A stretch of 64,000 nucleotides of DNA from NCBI RefSeq assembly GCF_032027425.1, contig NZ_JAVSJA010000001.1, positions 4,042,001 to 4,106,000 of the forward strand, given 5' to 3'. The number at the start of each line of letters is the position of its first letter. The stretch's first letter is position 1. This document shows positions 10,443 to 62,755 of the stretch, in pieces. Both the position numbers and the translations under genes were made by a program. This stretch comes from Microcystis wesenbergii NRERC-220 (lineage in GTDB: Bacteria > Cyanobacteriota > Cyanobacteriia > Cyanobacteriales > Microcystaceae). The notes beneath the pieces were generated by a model, which saw only the letters and a list, made by a program, of their open reading frames with translations, was not told where the DNA came from and ran no database searches.

Positions 10443-10928
10443 ATGCAAGACGCAATTACTTCTGTTATCAACTCTGCTGACGTTCAAGGCAAATACCTTG
10501 ACGCTTCTGCTCTCGGCAAACTGAAAGGCTACTTCGCCACCGGTGAACTGCGCGTGCGCGCCGCTAGTGTCATTAGCGCCAACGCTGCCGGTATCGTTAA
10601 AGAAGCTGTGGCTAAGTCCCTGTTATACTCTGACGTAACCCGTCCCGGTGGCAATATGTACACCACCCGTCGTTACGCCGCTTGTATCCGTGACCTCGAC
10701 TACTATCTCCGTTATGCTACCTACGCTATGTTAGCTGGAGATCCTTCTATCCTCGACGAGCGCGTTCTCAACGGACTGAAAGAAACCTACAACTCTTTAG
10801 GTGTACCCATCTCCTCCACCGTTCAAGCTATCCAAGCGATGAAAGAAGTCACCGCTAGTTTAGTTGGTGCTGATGCGGGTAAAGAAATGGGGATTTACTT
10901 CGACTACATTAGCTCTGGCTTAAGCTAG
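10443..10928 (+). CDS. apcB: Allophycocyanin beta subunit
   Basis: Pairs with ApcA to form the alpha-beta monomer that stacks into trimers in the phycobilisome core. The 161-residue chain carries the bilin-binding Cys81 ([13 protein letters not shown]). It also has the PGGNMY segment with Asn71, the residue that is gamma-N-methylated in beta phycobiliproteins. An AAGGAAGAACCACC leader precedes the ATG. Downstream the operon is interrupted by an approximately 390-bp TnpB-type element before apcC. Confidence 0.98.
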
Positions 10929-11050
10929 AAATAACGAACTCGGACAAAATAGGTTCGGGAAGCCGAGGATGAGTGCTAGGTCTTTAAAGGCTGAATCTGG
11001 CCAAGATAGGTTTTGACGAGCTAGTATTGATCCTTGACTCCCGACCTTTG

Positions 11051-11438
11051 TTATCGAAAATTTGGGTTGAAAACCCCGCCCCTTTTAGGGCGGCTTTGTG
11101 TTAAAATCTTACTGGTCTAAAAAACCCGCCCTATCATAGATACGACCGAATAAATATACTAGGTTGAAATTCCTGCAACGGGTCAACGATGAGTAAGGGG
11201 AAGCTGACGGCCGCTGGGAACTCCATGCTAGAGGCAAAACATACCCTGTGTCGGTATGTATAAACCAAAATTAAATCAGTCGCCGAAGGGCATTCGGAGA
11301 CTTTAAATGGACGTGGAGAAAGTGTCAGACTTAAGCAATTAAGCGTTTTTCGGTGAAGCGTCAACCCCATTCAGCGACCACCCTAAAAAGGTGGCGTGGT
11401 GAGGAATCACCGTCCGTTTACGGCGGTGAGGATGTCAA
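11051..11438 (+). mobile_element. tnpB-less TnpB/IS605-type element between apcB and apcC
   Basis: Both ends match those of the tnpB element at 50.8-52.1 kb. The left end GAAAACCCCGCCCC plus a hairpin (11076-11093) and CTTT corresponds to GAAACCCCG plus hairpin plus GGCTTT there. The right end TCACCGTCCG/CGGCGGTGA (11407-11429) followed by GAGGATGTCAA corresponds to GCCGTCCGTTTTACGGCGGC followed by GAGGATGTCAA. Internally, 11285-11356 reads as a TnpB-like C-terminal tail (ETLNGRGESVRLKQLSV, stop). It therefore looks like an internal-deletion derivative that kept the region encoding the omega/reRNA, co-oriented with apc transcription. Outer boundaries are approximate. Confidence 0.7.
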
Positions 11439-11458
11439 TTTAGGAAAAAGCCTTCGTT
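11357..11458 (+). ncRNA. Putative solo omega (reRNA) scaffold and guide
   Basis: In TnpB systems the guide RNA scaffold overlaps the 3' end of tnpB and runs to the element's right end, with the guide taken from flanking DNA. Here a CCACCCTAAAAAGGTGG hairpin, the TCACCG...CGGTGA hairpin and the terminal GATGTCAA are retained, and the following 20 nt (TTTAGGAAAAAGCCTTCGTT) would be the guide. Expression would come with the apc transcript. Structural inference only. Confidence 0.4.
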
Positions 11459-11501
11459 AGTTTGAGCGACAAGTTTTTCAGCGATTAGGAGAAATCAATC
11501 C

Positions 11502-11705
11502 ATGCGGATGTTCAAAATCACCGCTTGTGTTCCTAGCCAAAGCCGCATTCGGACACAACGGGAATTACAAAATACCTATTTTACCAAACTCGTTCCCTAC
11601 GATAATTGGTTTCGTGAGCAACAACGCATCATGAAAATGGGCGGCAAAATTGTCAAAGTGCAGTTAGCTACTGGCAAACCTGGGACTAATACAGGTTTAC
11701 TGTAA
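11502..11705 (+). CDS. apcC: Phycobilisome core small linker LC7.8
   Basis: The 67-residue linker (MRMFKITACVPSQSRIRTQR...) caps allophycocyanin trimers in the core cylinders and modulates their spectra. It is a basic CpcD-like domain and its length matches other ApcC proteins. A TTAGGAGAAATCAATCC leader gives a strong ribosome binding site. It is the last gene of the apc cluster but lies about 570 bp from apcB because of the inserted element. A strong terminator follows immediately. Confidence 0.97.
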   Translation: MRMFKITACVPSQSRIRTQRELQNTYFTKLVPYDNWFREQQRIMKMGGKIVKVQLATGKPGTNTGLL

Positions 11706-11730
11706 TCGGCTGCCACTGGAACTTAAAAAA

Positions 11731-11757
11731 AAAGAGGTCTTTCCAGACCTCTTTTTG
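11731..11757. terminator. Bidirectional intrinsic terminator between apcC and msrB
   Basis: AAAGAGGTCT (11731-11740), loop TTCC, AGACCTCTTT (11745-11754) with T-rich tails on both strands. It sits between convergent apcC and msrB and should stop both transcripts. Confidence 0.9.
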
Positions 11758-11759
11758 CT

Positions 11760-12176
11760 TTAGGGATTTTTTTCAAACTGCAAAGCGGCAGAGTTGAGAC
11801 AATAGCGTTTTCCCGTTGGGGGTGGACCATCATTAAAAACGTGACCGAGATGAGCATCACAGGTGGCACAAACAATCTCTGTCCGCACCATGAAAAAACT
11901 AATATCTCGTTCGTACTTAATATTAGTCTCGTTAGTAGCGGTCCAGAAACTCGGCCAACCAGTACCCGAATCATACTTGCTGTCAGAAGTAAATAACTCC
12001 GTACCACAGCAGACACATTTGTAAATACCTTTTTCTTTATTATCGTGATATTTACCAGTAAAAGCCCGTTCTGTTCCCTTTTTGCGGGTAACTTGGAACT
12101 GTTCGGGAGTTAGCTGGGCCTGCCATTCCGCCTCGGTTTTACGAACTTTTTCTACCATAGTCAGGACAACCGCCAT
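11760..12176 (-). CDS. msrB: Peptide-methionine (R)-S-oxide reductase
   Basis: Reduces the R epimer of methionine sulfoxide in proteins, part of oxidative-damage repair in a photosynthetic cell. The 138-residue protein has the zinc-binding pairs Cys54/Cys57 (YKCVCCG) and Cys103/Cys106 ([10 protein letters not shown]), and the catalytic Cys126 in RYCLNSAAL. The [16 protein letters not shown] and GTGWPSF motifs are intact. A second ATG at residue 7 ([12 protein letters not shown]) fits the usual family start and may be the real one. It converges on apcC across a shared terminator. Confidence 0.95.
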
Positions 12177-50734: not shown

Positions 50735-50860
50735 AAAAGAACAATCTCAATTATTTTGACATCCTCGCCGCCGTAAAACGGACGGCGATTCCCAAACCTC
50801 ACGATTTAGGTTTCTGCTTCTTTCCCGAAGGATTTTTCGCACCTGCCGCCCCAGTTTTAC
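50735..50860 (-). ncRNA. Predicted omega (reRNA) of the TnpB element with guide
   Basis: The scaffold should overlap the 3' end of tnpB and end in the GCCGTCCGTTTTACGGCGGC hairpin plus GAGGATGTCAA. The following flanking bases (AATAATTGAGATTGTTCTTT on the reverse strand) would be the guide. The scaffold start is not determined here. Confidence 0.5.
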
Positions 50861-52062
50861 TCTGTTCTGGTCTTATGGTCGCTCCACAGACTGACACCGC
50901 AAGCCCTGCGGCCAAAATATTTTTACTGGCGTTAATGTCTCGGTCATGGTGAGTCCCACAGTTCGGACAGTCCCACTCTCGAACATTTAACGGCAGCTTT
51001 TTCACAATATACCCACAATTACTGCACCGTTTAGAACTGGGAAAACATCTATCTATTTCGATGTAATTTTTCCCGTACCAACGGCATTTATAGGCTAATT
51101 GTCGGGTGATTTCTCCCCAGCTTACATCAGATATTGCCTGAGATAATTTCGGGTTTTTGACCATATTCTTAACGGCTAAATTCTCAACCACAATCGTTTG
51201 GTTTTCACGAACTAATTGAGTGGTTAGCTTGTGTAAATGGTCTTTCCTGCTATCGGTGATTTGAGCGTGAATTTTGGCTACTTTGATTTTTGCCTTTTCT
51301 CGATTCTTTGAGTCTTTCTGTTTTCTAGAAAGATTTTTCGATGCTCTTCGCAACCTCTGATAATGTTTCTTAAAATGCTTAGGATTAGATACTTTATCGC
51401 CATCGCTGGTAATCACGAGGCTACTAATTCCTAAGTCAATTCCAATGGCTTTATCTGTTACTGGTAGAGGCTTAATCGTTGGGTCATCAAATCTTATTGA
51501 GATATGCCAACGTCCAGAAGGATGTAATCTGACCGTTACTGTACTTGGTTCACATCCGTCTGGTATTTGTCTTGACCATCGAATAGGTAAAGGTTCTGTG
51601 CATTTAGCTAAATAGATTTGTCTGTCTTTGAATTTAAAAGCAGACTTAGTAAATTCGGCACTTCCTCCTTGATGTTTTTTCTTAAAGTTAGGATACTTAG
51701 TACGACCAGCAAAGAAATTAGTAAAAGCTGTTTGTAGGTGTCTTAAACCTTGTTGTAAAGGAACACAGCTAACCCCATTCAAGAAGTCTAATTCTTCTTG
51801 TTTTTTCCACTCAGTCAACATCGAAGAAGTTTCAGCATATCCTACTCTTTCTTGTCTTTCGTACCAAGCTTGTGTTCTGAGATGGAGAGCTTTATTGTAA
51901 ACTAATCTTACACAGCCCAAGGTGCGCCGCAATAGCGACTCTTGTTCTGCTGTGGGGTAAAATCGAAACGAATAGGCTTTCTCCATATCTCACATTCTAG
52001 CATATATCGTGTAAATGCGCTAGTATTTCATAGTAAAGCCGTCCTTTGAGAACGGGGTTTCA
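50755..52062 (-). mobile_element. TnpB-type element (IS605/IS1341 group, tnpB only)
   Basis: tnpB is flanked by element ends. The left end at about 52035-52062 has CCGTCC/GGACGG-type pairing, with GAAACCCCG at the outer edge and GGCTTTACTATG inside. The right end at 50755-50795 has GCCGTCC...GGACGGCG and ends GAGGATGTCAA on the reverse strand. No tnpA is present, so movement would need a partner in trans. Outer boundaries are approximate. Confidence 0.8.
50799..51986 (-). CDS. tnpB: RNA-guided endonuclease TnpB
   Basis: TnpB uses a guide RNA from its element's right end to cut DNA beside a short target-adjacent motif. The 395-residue protein starts MEKAYSFRFYPTAEQESLL and is full length. RuvC residues are intact: Asp184 (AIGIDLGISS), Glu268 (TIVVENLAVKN) and Asp350 (HDRDINASKNI). 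The zinc finger uses Cys321, Cys324, Cys340 and Cys343 (CSNCGYIV...CPNCG). The C-terminal tail is basic and overlaps the guide RNA. It is probably active unless non-coding parts are damaged. Confidence 0.93.
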   Translation of the reverse strand: MEKAYSFRFYPTAEQESLLRRTLGCVRLVYNKALHLRTQAWYERQERVGYAETSSMLTEWKKQEELDFLNGVSCVPLQQGLRHLQTAFTNFFAGRTKYPNFKKKHQGGSAEFTKSAFKFKDRQIYLAKCTEPLPIRWSRQIPDGCEPSTVTVRLHPSGRWHISIRFDDPTIKPLPVTDKAIGIDLGISSLVITSDGDKVSNPKHFKKHYQRLRRASKNLSRKQKDSKNREKAKIKVAKIHAQITDSRKDHLHKLTTQLVRENQTIVVENLAVKNMVKNPKLSQAISDVSWGEITRQLAYKCRWYGKNYIEIDRCFPSSKRCSNCGYIVKKLPLNVREWDCPNCGTHHDRDINASKNILAAGLAVSVCGATIRPEQSKTGAAGAKNPSGKKQKPKS

Positions 52063-52146
52063 GAGCCAAAATTGGCGATGACACTTTAGAACCAGTGATT
52101 TTTTCTCCTAAACCCAAGTTTTTCTGCTGGCAATTCCTTATTATCT

Positions 52147-62470: not shown

Positions 62471-62654
62471 CATTGGTTAAGATTGGGTATTTCTCAACCC
62501 TACAATTACGAGAGATACTGACAGCCATAAAATCAGGATCAGGCTTCGGACTACTTTAATGATCATCCCAGCTTTTTTTAATGACCCTAACTTTTACAAT
62601 TCTGTCGGGTTATGCCAGGGGTTAAGAATAAACCCTTCTTAGCTTATTAGACAG

Positions 62655-62755
62655 GCTTCCTAAAATAGATCGTCATCAAGTAGAAGCGGGTTGAAACTGC
62701 GCTTCTACTCACCGATGAGAATCCCCGTCTTTTGCAAGCGGGGAGATGTCAACAC
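62655..62755 (+). mobile_element. Remnant right end of a TnpB-type element
   Basis: TAGAAGCG/CGCTTCTA and TCCCCG/CGGGGA hairpins precede AGATGTCAA (62744-62752), the pattern GATGAGAATCCCCGTC...GGGGAGATGTCAA seen at the right ends of TnpB elements. No left end or tnpB is near, so it is a solo fragment, beside rpsN. Confidence 0.5.

Follow-up and report, generated by a model that had tools for sequence, protein, structure and literature searches.

A tnpB-less IS200/IS605-type element with a TnpB guide-RNA scaffold, inserted between apcB and apcC in Microcystis

The window, meaning the whole 64-kb stretch of DNA that was analyzed, holds a short inserted element between two genes that we take to be apcB and apcC, the former having the domain PF00502 and the latter PF01383. 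The element is co-oriented with both neighbors, and the locus reads as follows.

10443..10928, plus strand: phycobilisome protein gene (PF00502), presumably apcB, the upstream neighbor
11051..11054, plus strand: TTAT, target and expected TAM, in a single copy (empty sites and copy comparison)
11055..11438, plus strand: complete 384-bp IS200/IS605-type element without tnpB or tnpA (borders given by 10 empty sites)
11439..11454, plus strand: TTTAGGAAAAAGCCTT, the predicted guide of 16 nt, which the right flank supplies (empty-site comparison)
11502..11705, plus strand: CpcD/linker-domain gene (PF01383), presumably apcC, the downstream neighbor

An apcB-apcC query matched all 12 genomes of the genus, in one piece in two of them and in two abutting pieces in the other 10. 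The carriers are the genome under study (G000) and G001, which belongs to the same genus and is not listed as the same species; the site is empty in the remaining 10, among them G011, the only other member of the same species among these genomes. Because the empty sites (8 of 10 aligned, all 10 read) have the sequence GTTAT|TTTAGGAAAAAG, the insert must begin with CGAAAATTTGGG and end with GAGGATGTCAA, and it came in without a target duplication. An earlier sequence-only reading had proposed a tnpB-less TnpB element inside apcB-apcC, in the orientation of the genes, and had suggested looking for empty sites in relatives; the borders and the scaffold homology described below uphold the proposal, and the empty sites exist in 10 of the 12 genomes. 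That reading placed the borders wrongly, at 11051 and 11458, and was right that the right flank, and with it the guide, starts TTTAGGAAAAAGCC.

Insertion 3' of a conserved short target without duplication is characteristic of non-autonomous IS200/IS605 elements. From its identity as the target, TTAT is also the putative TAM. It is present in 10 of 10 empty sites, where the adjoining 16 nt equal TTTAGGAAAAAGCCTT exactly in seven, with one mismatch in G009 and two in G006 and G011; a guide match beside the TAM of the empty site is a property of omega-RNA (reRNA) genes.

Both ends of the element carry subterminal hairpins, as do non-autonomous IS200/IS605 derivatives of the PATE and MITE kinds, and a promoter-like motif follows the left one.

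11070..11073, plus strand: AAAA, the guide tetranucleotide of the left end, immediately before the left hairpin; it covaries with the target across copies
11076..11093, plus strand: left-end hairpin, six GC pairs and a loop of 6, with a weak terminator-like score (terminator scan)
11099..11107, plus strand: extended -10 promoter-like motif TGTTAAAAT, kept in the tnpB-less lineage (alignment of relatives)
11407..11429, plus strand: right-end hairpin, with GAAT (11404-11407) before its foot and TCAA (11435-11438) as the end (sequence, alignment)

The ends of IS608 have the same GAAT and TCAA. GGCTTT belongs to the left end together with the hairpin at 11076-11093, and the two ends that had been picked out by eye (hairpin plus GGCTTT, hairpin plus GAGGATGTCAA) proved real and repeated: the own genome gave 39 matches, mostly to one end only. 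A second copy in the own genome matches the element at E=6e-161, well beyond chance. Three size classes share these ends, namely, elements of 384 to 407 bp like that at apcB-apcC (five copies with both ends), elements of 357 to 360 bp with a different interior but sharing the outer ~43 nt on the left and ~161 nt on the right (15 copies), and full IS605 copies of 1.6 to 1.8 kb. A further class of 209 to 230 bp in G009 was rejected, since those copies hold runs of N. The left end of the family, with a TTAT flank and the promoter motif, was also seen in phage Mic1 (MN013189.1, L288:1497-1582), the right part being absent from the stretch examined, and the Microcystis phages MaMV-DL01, DL02, and DH01 gave a right-end match.

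The insertion could act mainly on its host, the left hairpin attenuating read-through from apcAB and the element's own promoter and hairpins setting the dosage of apcC. The left hairpin does resemble a weak terminator (two terminator-like sites in 10900-11800 versus 0.9 expected) and an extended -10 motif does lie upstream of apcC, but only 2 of 12 genomes have an insertion at apcB-apcC and the same family is inserted at many unrelated sites. We consider such a host effect highly improbable, the least likely of the explanations weighed here.

The right-hand part of the element is a structured module.

11278..11438, plus strand: TnpB guide-RNA scaffold plus right end, 161 nt, overlapping the 3' end of tnpB by homology (alignment, covariance model)
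11278..11302, plus strand: stem P1 (alignment, covariation)
11330..11343, plus strand: stem P2, CTTAA/TTAAG (all cells paired)
11374..11397, plus strand: stem P3, whose flanks CCCCATTCAGCGACC and GGCGTGGTGAGGAATC mark the tnpB-less lineage (alignment, signature search)

In IS605 copies, the stretch homologous to this scaffold comprises the tnpB 3' end together with the right end, which is the position of an omega-RNA or reRNA gene. Nucleotide homology to the 3' end of tnpB covers positions 199 to 312 of the element, at 76 to 78% to the two IS605 copies of the own genome. The TnpB-like C-terminal tail claimed earlier is in part correct: 13 codons (VAEGHSETLNGRG) match the IS605 TnpB (E=1.75e-4 in one pairwise search), and beyond them the frame is broken.

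A covariance model was built solely from tnpB-less copies (alignment A1, leaving out L009+557, L065+288, L093, L094, and copies with N near the end or without a recognized left end). At E values up to 1e-5 it matches 33 of 50 genomes and 12 of 14 genera of the family. Outside the genus, taking the best locus per genome, the matches at 10 of 15 loci reach into the 3' end of a TnpB frame, whereas five loci (L155, L165, L168, L169, and L170) have no such frame; the P3 flank of tnpB-less elements is missing from L169 and L170, which are perhaps decayed tnpB copies. Left ends at these loci had been sought with a loose expression, and the distances it gave were set aside. Since a model of tnpB-less copies finds the 3' ends of TnpB frames in other genera, homology, and more than resemblance, identifies the module as a TnpB scaffold, and the guide-RNA-like right end of the sequence-only reading thereby finds support in covariance tests. 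In the own genome, the model scores four tnpB-less places at 200.6, 192.6, 137, and 80.5 bits, the first being the apcB-apcC element, which is among the sequences that built the model, and the last two being damaged; of two IS605 copies, one scores 98 and the other 94.5 bits; a further 17 places, the TCAT group among them, are weaker, at 33 to 46 bits. A search of the window and the elements against Rfam returned nothing at the gathering threshold and a few weak matches far below it, a tRNA search of the window returned none, and the folding energy of the element RNA is not unusual (z of -1.2). A weak match to the model at 62617-62752 (14.9 bits, E of 0.024), which ends GATGTCAA, is possibly an old scaffold remnant or chance.

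The stems show compensatory changes, a trait of omega-RNA and reRNA genes. Among 20 tnpB-less rows (17 distinct), 94.4% of cells pair in a structure of 31 pairs, pairing falls to 28 to 53% when partner columns are slid by 1 to 3, and doubly changed cells number 22 versus 6.1 in shuffles (0 of 500 as high), figures to be read with the structure having been drawn on the tested sequences themselves and with kinship among the sequences inflating such tests. Adding 11 IS copies (29 rows, two of the IS rows being from decayed copies) gives 93.9% pairing and 80 versus 35.6 doubly changed cells, and in P2 every cell is then paired and three of five pairs have changed on both sides. Two of five covariation measures lie close to the shuffled values, namely, the counts of pairs with double change (22 of 500 shuffles as high for the tnpB-less rows, 157 of 500 with IS copies) and of pair types (213 and 137 of 500, respectively). 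In a 24-row alignment (A5) fitted to the model, 27 of 31 pairs have double changes, in 126 cells versus 40.9.

Stem P2 has CTACC/GGTAG, CTTCT/AGAAG, and CTTTC/GAAAG as counterparts in relatives. Across 15 diverged elements its 5' arm takes 11 different forms; of 75 cells, 62 are paired (62 of 68 ungapped), and 7 of the 13 unpaired cells are gaps. The pair identities in the same 15 elements are as follows: left hairpin to -10 box, 0.37; box, 0.65; 5' domain, 0.41 to 0.54; linker, 0.25; P1, 0.88; joint, 0.78; P2, 0.37; connector after P2, 0.46; two sides of the P3 loop, 0.92 and 0.85; P3 loop, 0.29; right hairpin, 0.51; end, 0.96. Apart from P2, most scaffold segments stand at 0.78 to 0.92, versus 0.25 for the linker that precedes them.

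An ordinary gene-less IS200/IS605 derivative, a MITE or PATE, would need no functional RNA: TnpA would move it, and the scaffold would be a passenger left over from the 3' end of tnpB. The ends that TnpA recognizes are wholly kept, and damaged copies persist, namely, L009+557 (306 bp, own genome), which is missing P1 and P2, L010, which has lost the right hairpin, and L146, a short copy in another genus in which P1 and P2 are absent as judged by eye. One subfamily also changes in the wrong direction, since in the class of 357 to 360 bp (e.g., L058-L077) the scaffold and right end are 91.7% identical versus 97.5% for the interior, the reverse of what simple constraint predicts. These scaffold differences come in blocks, some of them common to IS copies, which suggests module exchange or templated correction of palindromes, and templated correction of imperfect palindromes could itself be a source of apparent covariation. 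Against a passenger, the scaffold segments and their pairing are kept across families whereas the adjoining linker is scrambled, P2 has been re-formed with other bases although the reading frame is lost, and the promoter motif is conserved. We regard a functionless scaffold as rather unlikely and a working guide-RNA scaffold as the preferred reading.

Other rearrangements were seen among the copies. In L010 (near 535-553) and L155 (1501-1634), which are from different genera, the right-end hairpin has been lost, apparently between flanking GTGAG repeats. In the own genome, two gene-less elements lie ~375 bp apart (L009:557-1644); the left flank of the first, AAGTATTAC, and the right flank of the second, CAATGG, are those of one G010 site (L058), and hence nested or tandem insertion is possible. 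Compared with L098-L103, the TnpB-type Microcystis copies L104, L105, and L114 (the last decayed) have a P3 module otherwise typical of tnpB-less elements, so that IS and gene-less copies seem to exchange scaffold modules. Inside the left end of L101, L104, and L105, where a full IS605 has tnpA, there are runs of TTATCAG-type heptamer repeats.

Upstream of the scaffold, a second conserved region sets the tnpB-less elements apart.

11118..11240, plus strand: 5' non-coding domain of tnpB-less elements, with approximate borders (alignment of relatives)

The first bases of this domain carry the extended -10 motif: TGNTANNAT occurs in 16 of 24 sequences, five of those 16 from Microcystis, and positions T3, G4, T6, A7, and T11 of the -10 motif are nearly invariant in 21 rows of 50% mean identity; a sigma-70 scan of 10900-11800 did not report the motif at 11099..11107. 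At E values up to 1e-8, a search with L165, a tnpB-less element of another genus, had matches in 34 of 291 genomes of the order (21 of 122 genera), counts that include some scaffold-only matches. When 22 of 30 loci so matched were examined together with L155, 19 had no TnpB frame near the scaffold, and 17 of these 19 could be aligned with the Microcystis copies across the 5' domain joined to the scaffold (alignment A6, which left out L191, L196, and L009). L181 and L190 match chiefly via the 5' domain, and at the TnpB-bearing loci L198, L199, L202, and L204 the match begins only at the scaffold, not in the 5' domain. RNAalifold applied to the 5' domain of 21 sequences gave six pairs, three with double change, which does not support a conserved fold, and two subgroups showed almost no covariation save an AU/UA exchange (CAAG/CTTG versus CTAG/CTAG); for this domain we therefore claim sequence conservation alone.

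A 21-base signature from the P3 flank was found in 68 stretches of a named genome collection, in records that include Microcystis, Planktothrix, Okeania, Brasilonema, Scytonema, Calothrix, Lyngbya, Kastovskya, Chamaesiphon, and Crocosphaera. A match in Limosilactobacillus (L247), where the right end is absent, was dropped as chance. At the 37 signature places with at least 330 bases upstream, a loose motif test flagged 12, and a TnpB-like frame of at least 170 aa was present at three, all in Microcystis (L236, L237, and L283); excluding Limosilactobacillus, 33 of 36 have no TnpB-like frame, three of the 33 having assembly gaps. Judged by these sequence matches, related tnpB-less elements occur across cyanobacterial families.

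Such elements would need enzymes made elsewhere, and the target and left-end guide indicate which. In the IS200/IS605 family, the tetranucleotide 5' of the hairpin foot is described as selecting the flanking target (PMC6006769), and the two vary jointly here. Among 83 distinct pattern places, 14 unreadable ones look like chance matches, and the 69 readable ones comprise TTAT with AAAA (41), TCAT with GAAA (20), TTAC with AAAG (2), TTAC with AAAA (1, an exception), and five others that we judge to be TCAT one base off (two), left-end repeats (two), and chance (one). The apcB-apcC element and the IS605 copies of the own genome are of the TTAT-AAAA type, the agreement of guide and target being another trait of non-autonomous IS200/IS605 elements. 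The rule extends to the P3-signature places in which a left end was found (17 of the 37 with enough upstream sequence), all 11 TGAC places having CAAG and all 6 TTAT places having AAAA, although their borders were set by eye, four of the six TTAT places are in Microcystis, and some are the same elements as other loci examined. TnpB-bearing copies have TGAC-CAAG (L209 and L161), TTAT-AAAA (L216 and L202), TTAC-AAAG (L204), and TCAC-GAAG (L219), the left end at the remaining TnpB loci in that comparison being unrecognized or, at L198, ambiguous. In G206, TGAC-CAAG is common to one TnpB-bearing and one tnpB-less element. Exceptions outside the genus are L180, with TGAC and AAAG, and L190, which is ambiguous.

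The own genome has two IS605 copies of 1757 bp with the left end, TTAT target, and right end of the apcB-apcC element. Both have an open 407-aa TnpB (guided_TnpB; Pfam OrfB_IS605, TNB domain), and on the opposite strand a 133-aa Y1 transposase, TnpA, is open in one copy and interrupted by TAG in the other. The TTAT-type TnpB is the expected reader of the element's RNA because, in the account of ISDra2, the TAM is identical to the TnpA target (PMC8612924). From target and guide, the natural partner is this IS605 elsewhere in the genome, of TTAT-AAAA type, and the tnpB-less lineage probably borrows its cutting and moving enzymes from related transposons. Near full-length members of the 407-aa TnpB group (392 or more of 407 residues aligned, without a stop) number 11 copies in 8 of 12 genomes, all 8 of which hold at least part of a 357-bp-type tnpB-less element. 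The four genomes without one comprise G009 and G010, which have the 357-bp type, and G005 and G007, from which it is absent; G009 has many element matches and, in a gapped assembly, no near TnpB copy was found, and G010 has TnpB fragments only. This co-distribution fits use in trans weakly.

The sequence-only reading had named a different partner, within the window.

50756..52077, minus strand: other TnpB element, with a 395-aa TnpB at 50799-51986, target TCAT, and left guide GAAA (target, guide, model score)

It suggested that RNA could be made in bulk from the apc operon and used by this TnpB. The two elements do have the right-end hairpin and GAGGATGTCAA in common (about 36 nt, 92%), and the covariance model scores 45 bits there. 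Most of that score, however, lies in the right-end hairpin and the scaffold upstream of it aligns poorly, as against 94.5 and 98 bits for the IS605 copies of the own genome and about 87 to 103 bits for TnpB-bearing copies of the TTAT group in sister genomes, two of which reach 158 and 163 bits. The 395-aa protein belongs to a different group from the IS605 TnpB, with 46% protein identity, and a TnpB that reads TCAT is not expected to cut a TTAT empty site. On the grounds of its TCAT target, GAAA guide, and low model score we rejected this TnpB as the partner, and its use of the apc RNA seems very unlikely.

Our favored interpretation is that the apcB-apcC element is probably a non-autonomous IS200/IS605 element that serves as a mobile gene for a guide RNA, with TnpA and TnpB acting in trans, the one to move it and the other to retain it. 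Transposition would begin with a Y1 TnpA of the IS605 relatives, for which a matching open tnpA is present in the genome, recognizing the end hairpins, excising a single strand, and inserting it 3' of TTAT. Transcription would proceed from the element's own extended -10 promoter and by read-through from the apc operon, giving a predicted RNA in which the 5' domain is followed by the TnpB scaffold and then by some 16 nt of the right flank. The ISDra2 reRNA is described as ~150 nt of the tnpB 3' end, the right end, and ~16 nt of flank (PMC8612924), and the size of the apcB-apcC scaffold fits this. The TTAT-type TnpB of the same IS605 relatives would process and load the RNA in trans; TnpB and reRNA expressed from separate plasmids formed an RNP (PMC8612924), and in vitro TnpB is reported to trim only the 5' end of its RNA (PMC10278001). 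Trimming of the apc read-through RNA would, we infer, also split apcC from apcAB. The loaded RNP would then cut insertion-free copies of the chromosome at TTAT|TTTAGGAAAAAGCCTT, and repair of the cut is proposed to restore the element. For TnpB-bearing elements, a retention role and a gene-drive effect have been proposed or shown (PMC8612924, PMC11870625).

For the cyanobacteria at large, we put forward more tentatively, as a possibility somewhat short of even, a lineage that carries a guide-RNA gene only, made up of TnpA-type ends, a promoter, a 5' RNA domain in the place of tnpB, and the scaffold. It would borrow TnpA and TnpB to move and to home into empty sites, would be older than the genera in which it is found, and would have exchanged scaffold modules with its TnpB-bearing relatives. 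If so, the apcB-apcC copy could gain strong expression from the apc operon. By cutting empty sites, TnpB is thought to secure the place of its transposon; gene-less guide-RNA elements, if real, would parasitize both that retention system and the transposase, and they would multiply the sites policed by one TnpB. The paired changes of target and left guide provide a way of matching gene-less elements to TnpA and TnpB partners by sequence, and Microcystis, with the apcB-apcC site filled in 2 and empty in 10 of 12 genomes, allows a direct test of the retention idea.

Neither gene-less IS200/IS605 derivatives nor TnpB guide RNAs are new. Among the papers listed in our literature search, judged mostly by titles and the starts of abstracts, we found no description of a gene-less lineage with a scaffold, promoter motif, and conserved 5' domain across cyanobacterial families. 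The apcB-apcC element resembles ISDra2 and IS608 in its end hairpins and guide tetranucleotides, in insertion 3' of a short target without duplication, and in having the scaffold at the tnpB 3' end and the guide from the right flank; it differs in lacking tnpA and tnpB and in having a conserved non-coding domain in the place of tnpB. With PATEs and IS200/IS605-derived MITEs it shares the status of a gene-less derivative, presumably moved by TnpA in trans, but it retains a covarying TnpB scaffold of about 160 nt, the promoter motif, and the 5' domain. The PATEs of Geobacillus, close prior art, are reportedly defined by their ends only. Stand-alone omega-RNAs acting in trans, also close prior art, are said to have been reported for IscB, and they too are guide RNAs without their nuclease gene, whereas the apcB-apcC element is of the TnpB type and sits on a transposable unit with both ends. 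Short gene-less mobile elements are also on record in Microcystis itself, as 187-nt MITEs of ISL3 type with 9-nt terminal inverted repeats and 8-nt direct repeats (PMC11448079); unlike these, the apcB-apcC element has no target duplication and has subterminal hairpins instead.
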